A stretch of DNA of 64,000 nucleotides, from NCBI RefSeq assembly GCF_041146795.1, contig NC_135182.1, positions 498,501-562,500 of the forward strand. Reading direction: 5' to 3'. The notes under the pieces were generated by a model. It saw nothing but the letters and a program-made list of their open reading frames with translations, ran no database searches and was not told where the DNA came from. How positions within the stretch are numbered: position 1 is the first letter of the stretch; each line of letters starts with the position of its first letter. Source of the stretch: Maylandia zebra (Eukaryota; Chordata; Actinopteri; Cichliformes; Cichlidae). The position numbers were made by a program, and so were the translations under genes. Below are positions 3,336 to 64,000 of this stretch, one piece after another.

Positions 3336-14258
<10,923 letters not shown>

Positions 14259-23720: not shown

Positions 23721-26700
23721 ATGTTCCTGACTCACTGTATGATGGGATGGATTGTGTTGACAGCTCTTAGCTTCTGCCTGCCTGTGTGGAGCGGTGAGTA
23801 TAAACAGCCTTTTACTGATGATTTTTGTAACACTTTAAAAAACATTATTTTTAAGTTCATTACGAACAAGAAAAGCGAATGAGACTGGAATCAGATTAAA
23901 CAGCACTACAGATAAAGACAATGGTGCCACAGTCATGCAAAACCATTGAAGCTTTGTGTTCTGTGGGGCACATTGAAGAACCTGAGGGCAGTTCTGACAG
24001 GATTCGTTGGGACACCAAACATATGTTAACTAGCTGCTGGACCATGTACCACAGTGACTACATTTCCACATGAGCAGACATATAAAGCAGCTTGGAAGCT
24101 TTAATGGTGGAGCTGTGTAGACACACTTTGCTCCTACATGAGCAAGTTTAAGACTTACTGTTGACTTAAAACGTAAAACTGGTGCCAAGCCCAGCATCAG
24201 TGACGTGAAACATGTAAGGTTTTCAGGTGTCAGGTGGTATTTTCTGTATTTAAAAGAAGTCATCATTTCAGACGCGATACATGGAAAATATTAAATACAT
24301 GTGAAGACTGCTGAAACCTTTAGTTTGCAGGATGTAATCACAGAACGGGCATTCATTTGACAGGTGGAGTGACCCTTGGATCCAGACGTTTTGCCACCAG
24401 AATGACAAAACTGATCATAAAGTGAATCTTCAGCAATATTTCTTTTTGATAGATAGTTCAGCTGTCCTTAGCTGAACCGTTTTGCTGCTGTGGCTCTGAA
24501 GTTTACTGCTCCTTGTGGATTCAGCTAACTGTATTATAAGGCATTGTAATGTGGTTTTAGCTTTTAAAGTGCTAGCCAGGAAAGGAGCCAAGCAAATTTA
24601 ATGTATTCCAATTAATTTTCAACAAGCACATCATGAATCGTCGTGTGATGAAAAACATAAAAGAGTCATGGAATTTCTAATGTAGGATTAAACAATTCAG
24701 GTATATTAAATGTCACTGTTCAGCAGGCCTTCAGTAGGTCGGTGCTGAATTTAACTATCAGCTCGATAGACATTCAAACACAGAGTAACAGGAGGGGGTA
24801 AAGTAACATGACGCATGTTGAGTTTGTCAATGCCAAACTTCTGAGAATCTCTGAAAGGACTCGGCTTGGAGGAAAACCAATGAAACAACAATTCAAATTT
24901 GATAACTTTTGAACTGGAGGAGTCAGACGGCCTTTCCAAACACTCATCCTCACCTCAGCTCTCAGAAAGAAGAGCATCGTGTCTTAGCTCCTGTGAGGTT
25001 TTCCAAAGGTTGTGTCCTGTCTGTTTAATCCATACAAAGCTTACAAAACCCAGAATTTGCTCCCATAATTTTATTATTTCCTTGTGCTAGCTCATTTGTC
25101 GTTATATGAAAAGATTTATATATACGTTTCTTTCTTTGAGTGCTCCATTGGAACTGGACTCTGATATGTAAATGGTTTTAGCTGATAGTAATGTATTTGC
25201 TTCTTCATTGCTACTACTAATAGTCACTTATACCTTTTCTCACGCCAGCTACGAAAGTGACCCAGCCCTACAGAGTGGTCAGCACCAATGGTGTGGCACA
25301 GATTCAGTGTGTTATTCATCCACAAAGCCTGAAATACCCATACCCTGAGGAGGCCAGAGTCACTGTGCTGAAGGGCCTCCATGGCCACCAAGAAATCTGC
25401 TTCTCCATCCTTAACTTCACGGACCAGAGAGAGACACGTATGGAGCAAAAAGAACAGGTAATTATTGTTTTTGTGCTTTTTTGCCTGTTAAGGTTGAGTT
25501 TTCTTCAGGAATCTGCCACTGCGACCTGCTAGTGACACAAGATAACACTTTATGCTTAAAAACTCAGGTGGTCGAGCAGGTCACCTACTAATTGGAAGGT
25601 TGGTGGTTCCACCTCCTTCTGTTCCAGTCAGCATGCCAAATATCGTTGGGCGAGGTACTAAACCCCACGTTGCCCTCCGATGCATCCACTGGTGTGTGAA
25701 TGTTAGAAAGCAGAGAAAACAGTGCTCGTGGGAATGAAGTTATGAAAGTGCTTTCAGTGCTCAGAGTGGAAAAGCGCTATATAAACATATTTATATCATG
25801 GCTCACAACTGAAGAAGCCCACTTTCACTACACCCTTAATTTACCCTCAGTTACCAAACGAAGGTGGTTCATGTGCTCAGCAAACTGCATGCATGAGACG
25901 TCTTTAGTGAACAAGGTGTCAGACATTAAGAATCCAGATCCCGTCCTACAAATGTATATTTCTTCCTCCATAAATATTCTTTTTCTTCATTATACATTAA
26001 ACTGAAGATTGCACTCTTACAAATGGCACAAACATTAGACTGAAATACAAAATACAAAGTGTGAAACTTGTGCACGGAGTGTTGAGGTACAATGATGTCC
26101 TGCACATTTCAGGTGGAGTGCACTGCTGAGACCACACATGACACTGTGGAGGTGACACTCTCTGGACTGAATGCCACTGACACAGATATGTATCGCTGTG
26201 AAATACAGATCTTCTACCCACCACCGTACCTGCGGCTTATTGGCAATGGCACACTCATTCATGTCCTCGGTGAGGCGACCGCACTGCCATGTTTATCCAC
26301 AGAGCTGAAATTTTGAGTGCACATCACTTTTTCAGTCTTACGTTTCCTGTTCTGCGTTCACAGACAGCTCCAGCTGCCCCGTGCAGGAAACTCAGAGGCA
26401 AAGTCAGCACCAGGGTGAAGAAGAGGGAGATGATGATAACACGGCACCTGTCAGTGTTCCTGTGGTTGTCCTGGTGATCGCAATCATTTGTGTCTTAATC
26501 ATCATCATCTACTTCCAGGTCAGAACATTATTCATTTATTTTGTCTTTATCGGGAATTTGATTAGTATTTATTTCTAATTAGTAGTATCACAGCAACCTG
26601 ACTCCAACACAATGAACTGTTTCTGATGCAAAGAGTGTGACTCTGTGGTGTGAATCATCAGTCATTGGCTAACTGCCTTACAGAAGGTAACTGGTTCTAA

Positions 26701-28019
26701 TTTTTCACGTGGAATATTACAGTTTCACTTATGAAAGAGCAAACACGAGGCACTGAACCATGACGCTGCACGGGTTGTTTAAAAAGCAGTAAAGCAGTTT
26801 TGTGTTTTCTTTTAGCCTCGAGGCATTTATCAGCTGCGAGCCACTGATGTTTCGCTCCTCGTCCAGAGCAGTTTCAGAGACATGGAAACGTTTTTCTACC
26901 ATGCTATTTAGGAAAATCACTTCCTGTGTGCTCGGGCACCCCATGGGGTGTTCTGCCCTCTGCACAAACAAAATTGATGTTTCTAAAATTGTTTCTAGCA
27001 TGTTTTAAAATTTCAGCCAAAGCTACAAATTATTGTGGCTGTGCAGGATCAGGAAACTCAGCAAACGGCCTGTATTTATATAGCGCTTTACTAGTCCCTA
27101 AGGACCCCAAAGCACTTTACACAACCAGTCATTCACCCATTCACACACACATTCACACACTGGTGATGGCAGCTACATTGTAGCCACAGCCACCCTGGGG
27201 CGCACTGACAGAGGCGAGGCTGCCGGACACTGGCGCCACTCTGACCACCACCAGCAGGCAAACACGGGGTTAGCATCTTGCCCAAGGACATTTGGCATGC
27301 AGCCAGGAGGCAGCCGGGGATCGAACCACCGACCTTCTGATTAGTGGCTGACCTGCTCTGCCACCTGAGCTGCAGCCAGTGTTGCATGCTGCATCCTCCA
27401 CCTGCCGTCCCAGCTCAGCTGCCTGGTTTCCAGAAAGTAGTTCTCTTGTTGATACTGTAACAACTGTAAAGAGAACTCTTTCACTTTGTAGGGTTTTTTC
27501 TCCACTTTGACAGCCTTACAGCAACCTTGCAGAAACCTTTCTTGACCTCAGTTTGCCCCACTTATTTCTTTCCAATCACTTCTCAGTGTTTTAGCCTGTT
27601 TATCGGTTAAGGCATAAAGTAGTAGTATATTTATGCACATATTCATGGTTAACAGTCCAAGAGTACTAATGGCATGAAAGTCTTAGTGGTGTAAAGGATT
27701 ATTCAAGATCAACAAGAGAAACACAATATGTCAGGCTGACAGAAATCTTTATCCTTCAAAGGTCAAATCTTTCCATAAGCCTCTCGTGTCACAGACAAAT
27801 CATGTGACCTTTTCCTTCCACGTAGCTGTCAGGCTCTGCTGCATACTATCCATCGAAAGCAATGATAATTATTCACTCCATTAACATCTGCATGCTTTCC
27901 ATTTTCAGACTGTCCAATGTGAACGGGGGAGGAGAGAAATGCTGAGGCCGTGGCCTGGCACACTTCATAAGGTGGACGGAGCTTCAGGTCCATGTGAAAA
28001 CATCGTGTGTAACATGTGA
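23721..28019 (+). CDS. ctla4: CTLA-4-like inhibitory T-cell receptor
   Basis: Coding exons are 23721-23793, 25249-25457, 26113-26269 and 26364-26518, followed by one of two candidate last exons (26816-26911 or 27909-28019). Phases are 1, 0, 1, 0. Total length is 229 or 234 residues, against 223 in human CTLA4. Residues 1-24 are a signal peptide. The V domain begins VTQPYRVV, like VAQP in CTLA4, and has cysteines at 45, 75 (EIC), 97 (VEC) and 123 (MYRC), the four-cysteine pattern of CD28 and CTLA4. The YPPPY loop is at 129-133, followed by LIGNGTLIHV, which closely matches the CTLA4 sequence after its loop. Exon 4 begins with a stalk cysteine (SSSCPV), has an acidic run (GEEEGDDDN), and then a membrane segment at about 178-195 (VVVLVIAIICVLIIII). 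N-glycosylation sites are NFT, NAT and NGT. By family it competes with CD28 for B7 ligands and dampens T cells. The gene lies about 9.5 kb downstream of cd28 on the same strand, as in mammals. Confidence 0.88.
25556..25800 (+). mobile_element. tRNA-derived SINE, plus strand (copy 2) in ctla4 intron 2
   Basis: The A-box-like region GGTGGTCGAGCAGGTCACC and B-box-like GGTTGGTGGTTCCACC lie at the left, and the 3' motif AAAAGCGCTATATAAAC at the right. This is opposite in orientation to copies 1 and 3. Confidence 0.75.
26816..26911 (+). CDS. ctla4: ctla4 candidate last exon A (tyrosine-containing tail)
   Basis: A pyrimidine-rich tract ending in TTTTAG precedes this phase-0 open segment, which adds 31 residues after exon 4 and ends in TAG. 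It contains PRGIYQLRATDVSLL and ends DMETFFYHAI. GIYQL sits roughly where human CTLA4 has GVYVKM, and the terminal YHAI fits a YxxΦ sorting motif. There are few basic residues just after the membrane. Seen: acceptor, phase, stop and tyrosines. Inferred: that it is the CTLA4-type tail. It lies upstream of exon B, so the two would be alternatives. Confidence 0.5.
   Translation, partial: PRGIYQLRATDVSLLVQSSFRDMETFFYHAI
27066..27378 (-). mobile_element. tRNA-derived SINE, minus strand (copy 3) between ctla4 tail exons
   Basis: On the minus strand it begins CAGCTCAGGTGGCAGAGCAG (A box region), then GGTGGTTCGATCCCCGG (B box), and ends TATAGCGCT-like near 27080. It lies between candidate last exons A and B, so a transcript running through exon A to the AATAAA at 28416 would carry it. 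Confidence 0.8.
27909..28019 (+). CDS. ctla4: ctla4 candidate last exon B (tyrosine-free tail)
   Basis: A good acceptor (TTTCCATTTTCAG) precedes this phase-0 segment of 36 codons plus TGA. The tail has the basic stretch CERGRREMLR just after the membrane, as expected of a stop-transfer region, and ends CENIVCNM. It contains no tyrosine. An AATAAA signal follows 400 bases downstream, which supports this as a true terminal exon. It may be used instead of, or in addition to, exon A. Confidence 0.5.
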   Translation, partial: TVQCERGRREMLRPWPGTLHKVDGASGPCENIVCNM

Positions 28020-28415
28020 ACGCTGATGGTGGAGCTATCGTGTGCAGGGCAGATTTTTCTTTGGCTCAGAAGCGTTAGAATAATATTATTGCTTCTACCT
28101 AGTGAGCGGGGTGGGGATGATCATTTTCACCTCTTTGACGACTGATGAAAAACACCAAAATAACATTTTACTTTTTAAGTGAAAAAATAATGTTTACATT
28201 CTTGTAAACTCAAATGATGGTAAAAAGCTGTAGCTTTAATTTTCCATTGAGTTTAGATGTAAAATCACTTGTATTGTGCACAGCTTAAATGCAACTTAAA
28301 ATGCAATGCTTGGGATAATTAAAAGAGTACAATGATAGCTGTCTTTTACTGCAACTATTGTTATTGTTGTAATGCAAAGCAAATGTTCATGTATTCATGT
28401 TGGATGTTAACACAA

Positions 28416-28421
28416 AATAAA
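28416..28421 (+). promoter_or_regulatory. Candidate polyadenylation signal of ctla4
   Basis: AATAAA followed by a T-rich stretch (GTTTTTTGAC) lies about 400 bases after the stop of candidate last exon B. No comparable signal was noticed soon after exon A. Confidence 0.5.
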
Positions 28422-28756
28422 GTTTTTTGACTTTAAATTGTACTTTTGTTATTTGAAAAATATAAATATGTGTTGTTGCAACAGGAGACATTTTTGGAAA
28501 ACACTTTTTAATAGTTTTCAGGACTTTTCTAAAAGTCCTTTAAATCAGAATAAGCCTCGTTGTGTACAAACAGGCTATTTCTTTGCTCTTATGTCAAATA
28601 ACAGAGAAGCCAACAGATAAATACTGACAAGAGGATGTCCACATGGCACAGACAATAACGACACATATAGCATATTTATCATGTGTCTCACTGCATAAAC
28701 TATGGCTCATCAAAGGTGTTGGAGCCCTGCTTACTGACCTGTTGTTGTTCCTACAG

Positions 28757-28890
28757 GAGAATGGGAGGCAGAGCCTTCGGCGTTCAGGCTCCTTTTCCCT
28801 GGAACCAGCTCCCAGTTTGGGTTTGGGAGACAGACACCTTCTTTACTTTTAAGGTTAGGCTTCAAGCTTTTTTTGATACATCTTAAAGTT
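28757..28890 (+). mobile_element. L2-type LINE C-terminal fragment
   Basis: Reads GRAFGVQAPFPWNQLPVW then FFTFKVRLQAFFD, matching the C-terminal end of L2 reverse transcriptases (AFS..AP..WN.LP.......F...LK..L). Only this tail remains. Confidence 0.65.
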
Positions 28891-29845
28891 AGGGCTTGAT
28901 CAGCTGACTTAGTATGCATCATATGTATGATATATGGAGCTTTTTCCACTCATCTCTTTTCATAAAAGAATCCACAATAGCATCTAAAGAACTCCAGGCC
29001 TCACCTGCCTCGGTTAAGGTCAGTGGTCATGATTCAACTGTAATAAAGAGGCTAACAAGGTAAAAATGGATCCGAGGTGAAAACAGCTTACATGTGCAGC
29101 AGGGGTGGCAGGTGGGGGCATGTAAGATGCAGTGGAAATGAAATGGTTGACTGATCAGTCTCATCAGTCAGCAGTGTTCCCCAGGAACGTCCTCTCTCCC
29201 CTTTTCTGTGTATACAGTATATTGTCTGAATCATTGCAGAGCCATGGCTTCTTTTAAGATCACTTAAGTGTTTTCTTACTGCAGTAAAACTGCCTCTTTT
29301 AGTTCATTTCATTTCATTTTATTTATATAGCGTCAGCATCTAGTGACGGCCAAATGAAGCCGTCTGAAGCACTGAAGCTTGTGTTAGTGTTGTGTTCTGT
29401 TAGTCCTCTTTGGTGCCATCTTGTGGCCAAAAGCAAAAGTTGCGTGAAGAGCAGCTTGCATCTACAACTTGAAATGACAGCTTCTGTTTAATATCATAAA
29501 AACAACACATAAGGTTATTCTATTTATTTTTTATACAGCAGAACATCCTCTCTTTCTTGCTCGCTCCATGTCTCTCAGTATATCCCACATGGGTTTACGA
29601 TCTCTCACACAAAATCACCGCAACACAGCACAAATCCCACTAAAGATTCACTTCTGTATAAACCACTGAATCAGATACTGCAGCAGCAGCAGCTTCGGAC
29701 GTCACTGATCACTTGACAGCCCAACCAAGCCTGGATACACTGGGATGAAGACTGAAATATTGTTTGTCTGCTGCTGGTTCTCAAAATTATTGGTTCATAA
29801 AAACTGCATGTATAAAGTAAGTAAAAGGTTTGCTGTTTTTTTCCC
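28891..29845. other. Intergenic, nothing recognised
   Basis: No gene or element could be supported. Confidence 0.4.
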
Positions 29846-29848
29846 TTA

Positions 29849-30531
29849 TGCTGGGCTCACACTCTGCGATTTTTGGCCCATTTTGAGACGATTTTTGAGT
29901 CGTGCGACCGTTTTGGCGATCGGCCCGATTTTGGCCTTCATCGTGCGTCGTGCATCGTGTAGTATACGTGGGGTAACGAGACGCGATTGACACCTCACGA
30001 CCAGCTCCCGATCATCAATCGCTTGGTCGTGAGGGTGTCACCGCAGTTTGTCACACTGCGCACGCGCAAACACAAATGTCAGCGAAAAAGACGGAGCAGC
30101 ACGGCTGTGCAGCGTGTGATCTGGACACAAGCGATGGAGGCACAACTTGTAGAACTTTGGAAAGCTCATCCGAGCCTTTTCGATGTGGCCTCAGAAATTA
30201 TCACGACACAACAACCGTGAAAATAGTTGGATCGACACTGCTGCTCAATCACAGCTGCCTGGTCATGTTTTTCATTAGCAATTTAGCAAAGTTGATGGTG
30301 GTGGTGTGTCTGTGTGAGTGAAAGACAGAGAGAGCGAGCGACAGATTTTCTGTTATAACCTTCATGTTATGGAGGCACAGTGTGAGCACTCAGGTCGCAT
30401 CAGAGCATCGGGCCGTATAGTGTGAGACCTGCATCGTGACCTACCAACTTCTAACCCCTGCGAGTCAATTGTGCAGTTTGAGCAGGAGCTGAATAACGTG
30501 ACTGAAAAAATCGCACAGTGTCTGCCCAGCA
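29849..30531. mobile_element. Non-autonomous PIF/Harbinger-like element
   Basis: The left end TGCTGGGCTCACACTCTGCG and the reversed right end TGCTGGGCAGACACTGTGCG form an inverted repeat of about 26 bases with three differences. The element is flanked by TTA on both sides (29846-29848 and 30532-30534), the target duplication typical of PIF/Harbinger. Inside, a plus-strand frame reads WTQAMEAQLVELWKAHPSLF (about 30121-30180), resembling the start of the MADF/Myb-like second protein of Harbinger elements, but it is cut short. The length of 683 bases is too small for an autonomous copy. Confidence 0.8.
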
Positions 30532-30853
30532 TTAAACGTGGTCTTAAAATCCTTGGGGGCCTGTCATGGTCGCAGCTGAACAGAGCAGCCAAAAGAACAA
30601 CAACAACAATGAAAATGAAACTTTTTGAAATAAAGGAGACTCTCTCAGTTTTGTCTCAACATCAAATGAAATGTGCAAAGCATATTTATTTCCTGCTGAA
30701 GCTACAAGCCCAGAACCTTTATTTGAGCACCTCATTACATAACTTGTTACATACTTGAAATGTGCAATTCACTTGTATTTTTATTTTTTATTCCTATTTA
30801 TTCTATTTATCGACTTTGTATATTTTATTTATATTTGTCTCTGTATTTATATA

Positions 30854-30885
<32 letters not shown>

Positions 30886-30894
30886 ATTCTGTAA

Positions 30895-30992
30895 CTGTAA
30901 CTTCTGTCGGTGCTGTGCTTTTTGGAAATCGAATTTCCCAGAGGAACCCACCCGAGGGATTAATAAAGTTCTATCTTATCTTATCTTATAAC
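30895..30992 (+). mobile_element. Retroposon 3' end with (TTATC)n tail
   Basis: GAGGGATTAATAAAGTTC followed by TATCTTATCTTATC resembles the terminus at 20500-20664. No coding region accompanies it. Confidence 0.5.
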
Positions 30993-31484
30993 TTGTTGCC
31001 ACAATGGTTAAATCAGAATTATGAAAGCATTTTTGACAGAGTGTGACAGGGTAGCATGTAACACAGTGCTTTGGACTGTAGATGGTGCTAGTTAGAGCTT
31101 TAAATGATGAGAAAGCATTGTGCTGCAGTTTAGAGCCACTGACAGTTGCTGAAAAGTTGCTACTGGAAGTCTTGTGCACATGTGTGTGCGACATAAACCA
31201 CAGAGACATGCACGGTTCCTCTGTTTTTGTTGATAGTACAGATTAGTATCATACCATGAAAAAGTACCTGCAGCAGATCTGGATTTAACCCTGTGTAGGC
31301 TACAGACGTGTCTACCAGGACCATCTGCTAATTAGCGCTTTGAGAAAAACAATATAATAATGCTCTTTTTCAACTTGCAGTTGAAGGTTTTAGAGCACAG
31401 GTTACTCACTACTACACACGTATAAGGCTGTTGTATTAGTCTGAAGAAAAATCTGTTCGATGAGGATGCAGACTTTCAGTTGCA

Positions 31485-32255
31485 TTGAATGCCATACAAC
31501 ATAGATCAGATGTCCTTTAATGCATATATTAAACAAATGTGGGTTTTCTTAAATTTGTGCAGTCTGCATAAAGTTAGAAATATCCTGTCTCAGAGTGACG
31601 CTGAAAAACTAGTTCATGCATTTATTACTTCCAGGCTGGACGACTGTAATTCATTATTATCAGGAAGTCCTAAAAACTCCCTGAAAAGCCTTCAGCTGAT
31701 CCAAAATGCTGCAGCAAGAGTCCTGACAGGGACTAGAAAGAGAGAGCAGATTTCTCCTGTTTTGGCTTCCTGTTAAATCCAGAATTGAATTCAAAATCCT
31801 GCTCCTCACATACAAGGTCTTAAATAATCAGGCCCCATCTTATCTTAATGACCTTGTAGTACCATATCACCCTATTAGAACATCCAAGGGTATTTAAAAG
31901 CAGAAGCCTTCAGCTTCTTCAAGAGAAGCCTATAGGTAATTTATAGAGCACATGGAAATGAGAGCTTTATTAAAACTGGAAACTTCTGATAAAACATGTA
32001 TTTGGGCTGAATCAGGTGACCCTGAATCCTCTCTTATGCTATAATAGGTCAGTGCTGCTGGCGAGTGTTTCTTCTTCACTGACCTTTTTAGCTCACTATG
32101 TGTTTATACACCACTCTGCATTTAATCATTAGTTATTATTAATCTCTGGTTCTCTTCAGCAGCTCCTGATCCTCCCCTCACCCCAGTCACAGTGCCTGGA
32201 GGTTTCTTCCTGTTACCAGGGAGTTTTTCCCTCCCACTGTCACCAAAGGTGTTAT
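31485..32255 (+). mobile_element. L2-type LINE 3' fragment, internally deleted
   Basis: The frame at 31489-31776 reads KVRNILSQSDAEKLVHAFIT then SRLDDCNSLLSG and LQLIQNAAARVLTGTRKRE, the C-terminal region of fish L2 reverse transcriptase. The 3' part (CTGTTACCAGGGAGTTTTTC at about 32211-32230) follows after a deletion. Nearly the same protein stretch occurs in the minus-strand copy at 40085-41266. Confidence 0.85.
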
Positions 32256-32632
32256 TCATGGATAATCCTGATGACTGCTGTCAAACAGCTTCTGAATAAC
32301 AGTTTTAGAGTGACTGACTGGAAAATTGAAAAAACAAAACAAATCCAGAAAGTACCCCATTTAAAAAGAGCTGAATCTGGCTGGCAGAGATGGTCATATT
32401 TAATGGTCGGAATTACTTTAAAATGAATTTTATAATCTTTAAAATTACTTTCAAATAACCATTTCAATAATCAGCAACCTATTTAACATGATGGTAAATC
32501 ACTCAATCAGCTTGAGATGCAACTCGTGTAACTTGGTTTATCAACTGATAAGAGCTGCCCTACTTCTGCTGCTAATGGGACTTTCCGCAGCAATTTCCTA
32601 ATGTTGTAAACCTCAACATCTGGCAATAAACC

Positions 32633-32668
32633 CATTCTGATTCTGATTCTGATTCTGATTCTGATTCA
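32633..32668. repeat. (CTGATT)n short tandem repeat
   Basis: About six tandem hexamers. Confidence 0.85.
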
Positions 32669-35600
32669 GGTTCCTGACTCAGCGGTTTTCTCACTGAGTG
32701 TTTTAAGGCTGAAACAATGTTACAATGTGAAAAACAATTATCATCACCGTCTTCGTTGAAGGAACTAAGACAATAAGAAACCTGAAAAGCCCCCAGAAAA
32801 AAATAACACAAGTCCATAGAATAGTTTTTTATAGCACAAATGCATTAGCATGTTGACACTCTGAGTCTCGTGTGTCTTTAGATCCTTATACACTCGGCCA
32901 TAAACCAGAGGACTGCAGCTACTAATCAGGCCCAGGTTAAAGTGGGTCAGCCACTTTAACCCCTCCAGCCACTTTTTGTCAGCTGAAACCAACTGCCTCT
33001 CCTGGTGACAGATATACTTATTAATGGATCACACTGGATTAACTTCACTGTGACATATTCATGCGCAGCTGCCACCTCAGGCTCACAGTGTTTTAGCATC
33101 TAAGGAGCTATGGTGCTGAGGAGAGGTGGCCGTAAACCAACATCACCGATTATAACCTTTTTTCTGTGACGTTGTGTTGAGTTGTTGATGAGTTGCTGAA
33201 TTGTGTTTTTTTGTGAAACCTCCTGCAAAATTACTTATTTTATTATTTAGAGAGAAAGTATCTCCATGCCATCAGCTAGATGCAACACCAGTCTTCAGCA
33301 AATGAAACATTAGCCCTTCACTGTATTTGTATTTACATGCCTAAAAATATAATTACGGATTTGTTCCCAAATCATTCCCAATTTGTACACCAGATTTTTC
33401 AGTTGAAAAGTTATTTAAAAGGTAAATGTGACAATCTTTGCATTAGTCATTAAAAGCCCCAGAGTACCACAGCGTTCATGCCTTCGATGCACGTAAGTAA
33501 GTTACCGACCACAGCTGTTATATAGTAGATCACTGGTTAGGTTTATGCACTGGAAAGAAGCTGTTGAGGTTTGGGAAAATAGAGTGGTAGGGTTTGTCTC
33601 CCCTCAACACTGTCTAGAACACTGTCTTATGGATAAACCTCTGGTCTTTGACTTTAAGCTCATGGGAGACTACTGTGTGCCACAGGCCTTTTAAAGGCTC
33701 TGAGATCAGTAACGACCTGCCGTTCATGTAAAAGTACAGCAAGCATTAGCAAGTAAATGAGCTTCATTGATTTAGCATTGTAACAAATAAGGCTCCTCTC
33801 CACCATGGTCAACATGTGTGATATAGTGAAGATGGGATTTAAAGAAGTCATTAATAACTCTGACCTCGATAGAGAGGGCAACAGCTTTGACCACATCCGG
33901 TCTATTAAAACATGCAAATCGAGCAGGTGCAGGTTCAGCAGCATTTTCGAATTAGCATCAATGACAGTGTCTGAATGAAATACTTCTGAAATATCAGGAT
34001 TCATGCCTGCATCTTTGAGCTCATGAACGCCTGCCTGTCCAGCAGTTATAATCGTGTATACAGTATAACAGAATAATTATTTTCACCGATGACCTCATAT
34101 GTCTATAAGCCATGGCAGACATGTTAGCAAAAAACAGAACTCGTGGTACCGACGCCAACGGCATCTGTGTGAATCATCGACACAGGGCGAGGAGGCTCCA
34201 GAGATTCATGCATTTGATTCTGCCCTTCAGCAGCCTCAGCAGAAACACAACTTCCTCCACTGACCACAGCACAATCTTATTTCTGTTCCTGGCAGGCAAA
34301 GACGGAAACCAACATGGTTTATGAGTTTGAGCTGCTTTCCTGCTCAGCACACGTGTAATTACTGAGTTACTAAACTTTTTTTGCTGGCTCCAACAAGTCT
34401 GAGCTTTTTTATCAACAGGTTCTTTCTGGAAGCCACTTTTGTACTTTCTGTGCTTCTGAACAAAGACGTAGTAAATCTCATCTGATACCAGAAATCCTGC
34501 TGCCATCTGGGGAGTTTTTGCAAAAAGACAAAAAGAAATGCAAAAAGGCAATGTAATATCTGATTTGCAAGGGGATCATGAAATGAACATAATATTTATG
34601 AGAATCAAAATAATTGGGATTTGTGATAAATCATTGCTAAAAACACAACTGTTACTTTTGGTGTGTGATGATGGTCATGAAAAGTGTTGCTCCGACTGGT
34701 CATAAACCTTCATTCCAGTTCAGTGTTTGTAATTACTCCCCCCCTGAACTTTCAGCCTCCACCTTGTACATTTTTATGTGGCACAGGTTATTGTCAGTGT
34801 CACACTTTTGAGTTAAAAATAGAAAAACATTGTGTTCCTTTGCCTTATCTGTAAAAGCAGCAACAGTGGGCTGGTAAGAAAAACCTCCCCACTGGTCAGT
34901 GTGGTGTAAGTTAAACAAATGGTTTGCTAAACAGCGTGTGCGACTGATCACTGCTGTCTGTGCTACAGTTGCGTGCATGTGTCCATGATCTTTATCAGCA
35001 AAAAGTATTTTTCTTTGAAAGAAACTGTGTTCTGTGATATGAATAATTATTCTCAGCAGTGTTAATCCACATCCTGTTGTTGACAGTTTGTGTGTCTGTA
35101 AAATCTTTGTCTGCATGAGCAAGATGATTACAACACACAGACAAAATCAGGGTTACAAATCTCCTACAGTTCTGGTTTCTGGTGTATCTGAGGTCCGTTT
35201 TTCTTTGAGATAAAACAAAAAAGCAAATTCAGCCTCCTCCAGTCTCTTTTTGTTTTTATAGCGAAGCACTTTTCTATGATTGTTGATAACTATGCCATCC
35301 AGATTGTCAAGAAATATACTCTAAAACACTTCTTCAGCAAAGACTCAGAGAAGAGAAACACACAGAACTTCTTGCTAGCAAGGGCAGCCTCCAGACTGAG
35401 ACTCGCGCTGAGAAACTGCCCCGGTCTTTATTTATACTTGTGTGTGTGTGTGTTCAAAGTGTGACCCCTTAAACAACTTCCCTTAACCTGCTGGTCTGGA
35501 AAATCCAACAGTTCATCTATATGTAAAAAAGCACTTAGACTAAAACTGACATAGCTACGTTAATCCTACCGTAAAACAATAAAACAAGGTACGACCTCTC

Positions 35601-62651: not shown

Positions 62652-64000
62652 ATGATACTTTCCAGCTTCAAAAGCTTCTTTATTTATTATTATTTGAGCT
62701 CCTTATTCTACCCAAGCAATGGTAAGACTTTCAGTTTCACCTTCTAAACTGTAGCAGTTTAATTTTAGTAATTAATTTTTCAACTTTAGTGATTAATGAG
62801 AACTGCTGGTCCAGTGAGTTAAAAAATGGCCACAGTAGAACACAAATATGGACTTGCATTTCTCATGGTCAGTGTGTTATGTTATTGAAAGGTACAGTAA
62901 ATAAAACATTTACCCTTAGATGTCTCTCCACATGGACTCTAATGACAGAAAGAAAAAACAGAAAGTTTTAACCTTGTTTCTGAATTTCTTTTTACCAGGT
63001 TTTGAGGTGATCCAGCCACAGAATAAGACTAATAACCCAGATACAGTTTTCATCAGCTGTAACTTTACAGCAAACACTGGGATAATTGTAGATGTTCGAC
63101 TCAACAAGGTTTTACCAGAGAAGTATGTCGAAGCATGTCTCTTGGTTTTAGTGAATTTGTGTTGTTTTTGAGATGACAAAAACAAGCTTTTCTCTTTCAC
63201 TGCAGGATGTTGAGAAATTCTCGTACTACTTGTATGAACTCATGTTTGCTGACTGAAGTTCTCTTTATGTTTTTGATCAAATGTTTGTATGACAAAAAGG
63301 TGTCTGTATGAAGTCTGTAGCAGTTCTATGTTCAAAAATCTGCAGGTTTTCTTTTCCCATTTTCAAGAATTCTGCCTGCTGCAATTTTAACATTATTTCA
63401 ATTAAAATAATTAGACTGGGTCATGCTAGCTGCATATCTAATATTTCTTTGTTTCCTTTCAGAAAGATGCTCTGCCAGACTGAATCTGAAGCCTGTCATA
63501 ACATTATCGTACTTAAAGACGCTCCATTCAAGTACATTTTCATCTTACTCAATGCTGGGCCAGAGGCATGGACCTCAAAGTATGAATGTGAGTGGTCAGC
63601 AACAAATAAGGATGGGACGGACAAAACCGTGACAAGTGCAGCAAACAAATTAATTAAACTGCAACTACAAGGTATGTATATACAAAAAGTGATAAAAACA
63701 GAAATTGCATTTTATTTATTTATTAATTTTTGTCTGCAGAAGTGAAAGATTGAAATGACAAATGATGCAACAGAACGTCCACATTTTAGAGCATCAAATA
63801 CTGTGATTCTGTTAGATGCTGTTAGAATAGTTGAGATTACAGTCTCCCTCCAAAGAGTAGTTTTCAGTTTGGAACAAGTCACAGTTGAGCTCTGCAGACA
63901 GCTTGTTCTGTTCATCAGAGCTGTGTTTTGCACTTCATTGCATACTTATCTGCTGGCTAGTTTTTGTTATGGGGGAGGGCAAAGTTCGGTTTCAGCCTAA
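62652..64000 (+). CDS. Third CD28/CTLA4-family-like receptor gene, incomplete at window end
   Basis: Readable exons are 62652-62721 (signal peptide, phase 1), 62999-63122 (phase 2) and 63463-63671 (phase 1), giving 134 residues so far; all introns are GT-AG. Exon 1 is 70 bases, the same as in cd28. The signal peptide has the core FFIYYYLSSLFY. The domain starts FEVIQPQNKT, like VAQP in CTLA4 and VTQP in the neighbouring ctla4. It has DVRLNKVLPEKKMLC in the place of EVRVTVL...EVC of CTLA4. Cysteines are at 44 (ISC), 69 (MLC), 76 (EAC) and 107 (KYEC); 62 residues lie between the first and last, normal for a V domain. There is no PPP ligand loop; the sequence after Cys107 is EWSATNKDG. Glycosylation sites are NKT and NFT. 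A hydrophobic stretch at about 63898-63960 may belong to the membrane exon, which would continue beyond the window. It could be an ICOS-like gene, a diverged ctla4 duplicate, or another Ig receptor. The family assignment is inference. Confidence 0.6.

Follow-up and report, generated by a model that had tools for sequence, protein, structure and literature searches.

Introduction

Does a teleost retain the third gene of the CD28-CTLA4-ICOS cassette? In parts of Quiniou et al. 2024 (PMC11599192), the three-gene cluster is described as conserved except in teleosts, with ICOS apparently lost in that group. The window, which is the whole 64,000-nucleotide stretch of Maylandia zebra DNA analysed here (C16:498501-562500 of a 962 Mb genome), carries cd28 (6098-14258), ctla4 (25249-26518) and a further gene that we call gene 3 (from 62652), all on the + strand. 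The earlier note, made from the letters of the window, had likened this order and strand to the mammalian cluster, and the likeness holds. Gene 3 is the third gene of the cassette, i.e. it lies in the ICOS position, and its presence in the window is confirmed.

We also read the DNA downstream of the window for further exons. These exons and a whole-protein profile support the main claim of the earlier note, namely that the ICOS position is occupied by a third CD28/CTLA4-like receptor gene, one without the proline loop. We conclude, with a probability of about 0.86, that gene 3 is a five-exon, single-pass CD28-family receptor gene in the third (ICOS) place of the cassette. Among the matches listed in the open-access literature, none describes a third cd28/ctla4-linked gene in teleosts; an automatic annotation of gene 3 may well exist.

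An Ig-like ectodomain without the proline loop

Three exons of gene 3 lie within the window on the + strand. Exon 1 (62652..62721) supplies the ATG and a signal peptide, MILSSFKSFFIYYYLSSLFYPSN(G), and ends in phase 1 at the donor ATG/GTAAGA. The first half of an Ig-like ectodomain, running from FEVIQP through VFISC44 to VDVRLNKVLPEK, is encoded by exon 2 (62999..63122), which ends in phase 2. The second half (KMLC69...C76...KYEC107EWSATNKDGTDK...) follows in exon 3 (63463..63671), which ends in phase 1. The phases (0->1, 1->2 and 2->1) are consistent, the borders are GT/AG, and the 134 residues encoded bear out the earlier reading of a signal peptide followed by a V-like domain; VIQP, DVRL and the cysteines at 44, 69, 76 and 107 are all where that reading had placed them. 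A V fold is suggested by the pattern of residues. The ectodomain has two N-glycosylation sequons (N32 and N45), the presumed C strand lacks tryptophan as in CD28, CTLA4 and ICOS, a cysteine occupies the C' place in profile alignments, and only 6 residues separate the second and third cysteines.

The PPP ligand loop is indeed missing, as the earlier note had said. After YEC, on the presumed F strand, there is no PPP, the proline motif of the CDR3 loop is absent (YECEWSATNKDGTDK), and exon 3 as read contains neither PPP nor GxG. Between exons 2 and 3, no cassette exon able to restore the C'-D stretch was found at the thresholds used. A putative degenerate copy of exon 3 near 63206 was rejected: its alignment score is 38, and 200 shuffles average 34.6 and reach up to 48.5.

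The ectodomain by itself, judged from its sequence, does not prove kinship with the CD28 family. Pfam gave no V-set match and only the NBR1 Ig model (E 0.03-0.05, under its cut-off), phmmer against PDB gave one irrelevant match (E 1.5), and NCBIfam gave none. The earlier note had foreseen that profiles might place the domain in an unrelated Ig family, but no Ig family reached its cut-off. Scored with a profile built from the V domains of CD28, CTLA4 and ICOS, gene 3 obtains 2.9 bits, which 40 of 500 shuffles match, as do 43 of 500 shuffles with the cysteines fixed; human PD-1 scores above it, at 5.3 bits. In a six-frame scan of the window with the V-domain profile, the V exons of gene 3 were not among the best 20 rows listed. 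For exon 3 (69 aa), relatives were sought in viral and genome contig sets, and none of the 25 and 221 pattern matches, respectively, was confirmed by tblastn. For comparison, the cd28 of this fish, as modelled, gets no further than Pfam Ig_2 (E 0.00036, under the cut-off), and its best CTLA4 chain in PDB (E 0.19) ranks behind contactin (0.054). In the portion of PMC11599192 drawn on here, recognition by a V-set or CD28-family profile is not a criterion of family membership, and PD-1 is a recognised member without conserved CDR3 prolines.

Stalk, transmembrane and tail exons downstream of the window

Extended past position 64000, as the earlier note had proposed, the sequence yields the remaining exons of gene 3, in phase and on the + strand. 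Exon 4 (C16:564083-564228, 1583-1728 bases past the window end, phase 1->0) encodes GHLETTPQCTPPPSPPPPQSHQLMWILIGLLALMFVYSCIITSFYMRLM, which comprises a stalk rich in prolines, containing a cysteine (Cys143), and then a transmembrane segment (TM) carrying YSCIIT. This is an instance of YxxxxT, given in parts of PMC11599192 as the dimerisation motif in the TM of the CD28 family. The donor of exon 4 (ATG/GTGACT) is middling. Exon 5 (C16:565773-565874, 3273-3374 bases past the window end) is terminal and in phase behind a strong acceptor, and encodes NSSKDCENSTYVEMRNVPVQLHPHHIYNTMQKA and then a stop; the tail has two YxxM sites, YVEM and YNTM, no YxNx site, and no ITIM or ITSM that we could see. 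A downstream break in the frame, which the earlier note had counted among possible failures, does not occur. The frame stays open through exons 4 and 5, and the complete gene comprises five exons and 651 nt including the stop, encoding 216 residues with no internal stop. The in-phase continuation into a stalk/TM exon of CD28 type and then a tail exon with YxxM is the stronger proof that gene 3 is a real receptor gene.

Such exons are infrequent in the surrounding DNA, according to scans whose thresholds were set after gene 3 had been seen. Exons of 100-180 nt that run from phase 1 to phase 0 could be formed by 271 acceptor-donor pairs in 162.5 kb (both strands); 18 of these encode a TM, and a stalk cysteine together with YxxxxT occurs in two, cd28 and gene 3. 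Terminal open frames of 15-70 codons behind acceptors number 790 in 82.5 kb (both strands), 12 of them with YxxM, and solely the gene 3 tail has two such sites in one frame. The window was also scanned for chains of a signal exon and a two-exon, four-cysteine Ig-like domain, with thresholds again chosen after viewing gene 3. On the + strand this returned ctla4 and gene 3 only; the - strand has no locus with a signal-exon donor score of at least 5 and two loci with a score of at least 4. Under the weaker donor rule, 100 shuffles of each kind were run, and at least one locus arose in 5 of the whole-window and 8 of the block type; under the stricter rule loci arose in one of eight shuffles (two loci there).

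Gene 3 was found once in the genome, as was ctla4. Its TM exon has five weaker matches elsewhere (E 0.018 and worse), and the three of these that were inspected contain no stalk cysteine with YxxxxT.

Might gene 3 nevertheless be a pseudogene in decay, or a set of open frames that line up by chance? Its coding bias is weak, and codon usage does little to back it. Of 147 open background windows, 20% do at least as well as exons 2 and 3 joined (38% for exon 2 alone and 18% for exon 3 alone); for the two V exons of ctla4 and exon 2 of cd28 the figure is 2.6-6%. In an ML tree of ten rows, the end branch of gene 3 is also very long, at 8.3 changes per site. Set against these signs are a 651-nt frame that runs uninterrupted through five exons whose phases match, and the rarity by chance of the exon chain and of the TM exon. 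We therefore regard decay or chance as improbable.

Other continuations of the gene were considered and set aside. An 81-nt exon 1813-1893 bases past the window end (MFVIILPGRN...) could be inserted in phase; as an alternative tail exon it was rejected, because it has no YxxM and would place another hydrophobic stretch after the TM. Reading on through the TM exon to form a tail gives no YxxM motif either. An in-window TM candidate (acceptors 63868/63898/63919, peptide ...CILICWL...) was dropped once the CD28-type TM exon was found 1.7 kb further on. Candidates of this kind occur at a background rate of 6 in 674 acceptors, this one included, and its frame, read unspliced, meets a stop ~40 codons after 63919. 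It resembles what we take to be the human ICOS TM; a literature search for the string CILICWL gave no match, and a comparison of the human ICOS TM and tail with PDB returned no ICOS entry covering that part.

Membership in the CD28 family

Evidence of kinship comes from the protein as a whole. A profile built from the human CD28, CTLA4 and ICOS proteins together with the fish's own cd28 and ctla4 gives gene 3 a score of 17.3 bits. Of 1000 region-preserving shuffles, in which ectodomain, stalk, TM and tail each retain their composition, none scores as high (maximum 13.0). Its TM was compared with what we take to be the TM sequences of human CTLA4, CD28 and ICOS and of eight unrelated human proteins. 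It scores 47 with CTLA4 (0 of 2000 shuffles as good), 35 with CD28 (15 of 2000) and 26 with ICOS (197 of 2000, not significant), and the unrelated segments score 15-26. Likeness to the TMs of the fish's own cd28 and ctla4 is not significant (317 and 1049 of 2000 shuffles as good, respectively). BLASTP of the stalk-TM-tail region, run as one-sequence comparisons without composition correction, gave E values of 2e-5 for human CTLA4, 0.002 for human CD28, 0.015 for own cd28, 0.08 for human ICOS and 1.4 for own ctla4.

With the CD28 family, gene 3 shares a TM, a tail with tyrosine motifs, a stalk cysteine, YxxxxT, its genomic place and a single ectodomain that its pattern suggests is V-type; an ectodomain recognised by profile and the CDR3 proline motif are lacking. 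PD-1 likewise has no CDR3 proline motif, but gene 3 differs from it in having YxxM and no visible ITIM/ITSM, in lying at another locus and in showing no profile link to it.

The failure of profiles to recognise the ectodomain would also suit an unrelated Ig receptor (NITR, CD300 or similar) that adjoins ctla4 by chance. Such a receptor is hard to reconcile with a YxxxxT TM, a stalk cysteine, a YxxM tail and the full-length profile support, or with the absence of a C-strand tryptophan and a J-like GxG. Furthermore, NITR genes form multigene clusters, whereas gene 3 was found once. The features by which we take NITR and CD300 receptors to be recognised (a V-set match, J-like GxG and a multigene cluster) are absent and set gene 3 apart, and a chance neighbour of this kind appears very improbable.

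The neighbouring genes and their V introns

The cd28 gene has its V domain on exon 2 (6098..6225, first part) and exon 3 (10454..10574, second part, with YPPPY; E 0.0033 with an HMM of PDB-derived CD28/CTLA4/ICOS V domains). Exon 4 (12269..12423) encodes the stalk and a TM with YSLTIT (YxxxxT), and exon 5 (14184..14258) the tail, KKQKKEEMESVVYENTRPRKSPKP, which has YENT, of the YxNx type, and no YxxM. In the V domain as modelled, only ~44 residues separate the cysteines of the B and F strands and the second disulfide is missing; no middle exon was found in 6098-10574 at the thresholds used.

The V domain of ctla4 is encoded by exon 2 (25249..25457, first part) and exon 3 (26113..26269, second part, with FYPPPY and GNG; HMM E 1.4e-17), and the stalk and a TM without YxxxxT by exon 4 (26364..26518). 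Fish CTLA4 is reported to have such a TM in parts of PMC11599192. The identity of this gene is secure as judged by sequence: the V domain joined from exons 2 and 3 matches a CTLA4-like PDB chain at E 4e-17, deposited as an uncharacterised protein, followed by a chain named CTLA4 (9e-15), and Pfam V-set_2 'ICOS V-set' at 1.8e-6. A possible ctla4 tail exon at 26816-26911, PRGIYQLRATDVSLLVQSSFRDMETFFYHAI, has a Yxx-hydrophobic site, YHAI; in the + frames of 26518-33000, a search for YxNF, the motif reported for teleosts, was negative. Elsewhere in the genome, two weak matches to the ctla4 V domain (L016 and L017, C6:29.10-29.11 Mb, E 0.04 and 0.15) lie within 14 kb in open frames of 132 and 141 codons, and are perhaps a small cluster of other Ig receptors.

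All three genes share a phase 1 boundary between V domain and TM and a phase 0 end of the TM exon. The V domain is split by an intron in each, at a different place: in phase 0 two residues before the third cysteine in ctla4, in phase 0 just before NHTAQFEV in cd28, and in phase 2 three residues before the second cysteine in gene 3. That three adjoining genes should differ in this way is odd. Parts of PMC8631826 give flounder cd28 four exons, citing the same for tongue sole, trout, medaka, zebrafish and sea bass, and describe published fish cd28 as having one Ig exon, unlike the split V exon here.

ICOS descendant or diverged duplicate?

Gene 3 could instead be a fast-diverged, lineage-specific tandem duplicate of ctla4 or cd28, which would still make it a CD28-family receptor but not a descendant of ICOS. 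In favour of this are a TM nearest to those of human CTLA4 and CD28 and not to that of ICOS, the absence of the ICOS motifs PxP and EYMxM, and a tail without the extra intron that human ICOS presumably has there. The V introns argue otherwise: that of gene 3 differs in position and phase from both neighbours, with which a recent duplicate would share it, and a recent origin from ctla4 or cd28 is disfavoured because the three introns sit at three different places. No V similarity to cd28 or ctla4 was detected among the matches listed in the six-frame profile scan. Parts of PMC11599192 also report YxxxxT for ICOS of gar, sterlet and paddlefish, as in gene 3, and the motif therefore does not point away from ICOS. 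We judge a duplicate possible but on the unlikely side.

Comparison with each family member gives a mixed picture. Gene 3 resembles ICOS in its third place in the cassette, on the same strand, in a single V-like domain, a TM and a short tail, and in having YxxM without YxNx. It departs from ICOS in lacking the P-[PAL]-P loop, in having TYVEM in place of EYM[DPF]M, in its intron-split V domain, in the gap between second and third cysteines (6 residues against 19 in human ICOS), and in a TM without significant likeness to that of human ICOS. Parts of PMC11599192 report EYM[D/P/F]M as fully conserved in ICOS.

The best TM match is human CTLA4 (LMWIL...YSCIIT in gene 3, against LLWIL...YSFLLT in CTLA4 as we take it to read). 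The CTLA4 tail motif, presumably YVKM, is close to YVEM, and the VTQP start of CTLA4 is close to IQP. Gene 3 nonetheless lacks the PPPY and G-strand GxG of CTLA4, and in this fish ctla4 exists as a gene of its own, at 25-26.5 kb, whose TM has no YxxxxT. CD28 shares with gene 3 the YxxxxT TM, the stalk cysteine and the exon phases at the V/TM and TM/tail boundaries, whereas gene 3 has neither PPP nor YxNx, and own cd28 is again a separate gene.

The earlier note had proposed an ICOS-like relative or a lineage-specific member. Position, YxxxxT and YxxM fit the ICOS slot, but PxP and EYM[D/P/F]M are absent and the ML tree gives no placement, with none of its seven inner branches starred. Because these motifs are absent and the tree is unresolved, we assign gene 3 to the CD28 family and to the ICOS position, without calling it a proven ICOS; the odds that it descends from ICOS itself are about even. 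Equally balanced is the broader proposal that ICOS was not lost in all teleosts and that the third gene of the cassette persists here, with an ectodomain remodelled without the proline loop, a PI3K-type tail and a ligand other than CD80/CD86.

Genomic context

The ~36 kb between ctla4 and gene 3 (26600-62600) contain many open frames that look transposon-like by eye, reverse transcriptases and others, and no further CD28-like exon stood out there by profile. Open frames of at least 110 aa in the 40 kb upstream and ~58 kb downstream of the window are, by eye, mostly transposon-like, and no marker genes were recognised by eye in these flanks. A 307-codon open frame at L004:7786-8706 (- strand; MEVFETLAIKIPNAVLIDGV...) appears by eye to be PNMA/Gag-derived-like.

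On a larger scale, Abi (8.1 Mb), hox11-type (20.2 Mb) and Par3-family (35.1 Mb) genes also lie on C16. Human 2q holds CD28-CTLA4-ICOS, HOXD, ABI2 and PARD3B, and macrosynteny therefore agrees. Abi and Par3 genes also occur on C22, as a duplicated partner would have them, but on C9 and C18 too. We take two homeodomains, on C11 and C21, to be of HoxA13 type, one on C20 to be of C13 type and one on C4 to be of B13 type; two HoxA13-type genes on different contigs fit the teleost genome duplication, and not gar.

Proposed function and implications

By analogy with the family, the gene 3 product would sit on T cells as a disulfide-linked homodimer, held together through Cys143 and the YxxxxT TM. With no MYPPPY loop, the usual mode of binding CD80/CD86 is unlikely; ICOS itself binds ICOSL and not CD80/CD86. 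The ligand, B7-like or other, may be bound by a V-type face other than that loop, and it may differ from the ligand of the neighbours. Src-family kinases would phosphorylate Tyr194 and perhaps Tyr210, and the phosphorylated YxxM sites may then recruit the p85 subunit of PI3K, which would give costimulation in the manner of ICOS, through PI3K and with no YxNx site for Grb2/GADS. Since the tail of the fish's own cd28 has YENT and no YxxM, cd28 and gene 3 may have divided the signalling tasks between them.

A gene of this kind could be overlooked because its ectodomain escapes the sequence and profile searches run here, and solely the TM and tail exons betray it. With a third family member in that slot of a teleost genome, the reported loss of ICOS becomes directly testable. 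If expressed in T cells, gene 3 would be a PI3K-type costimulator for this fish, of relevance to T-cell help and fish vaccines, and a naturally occurring example of a CD28-family receptor that lacks the MYPPPY loop.
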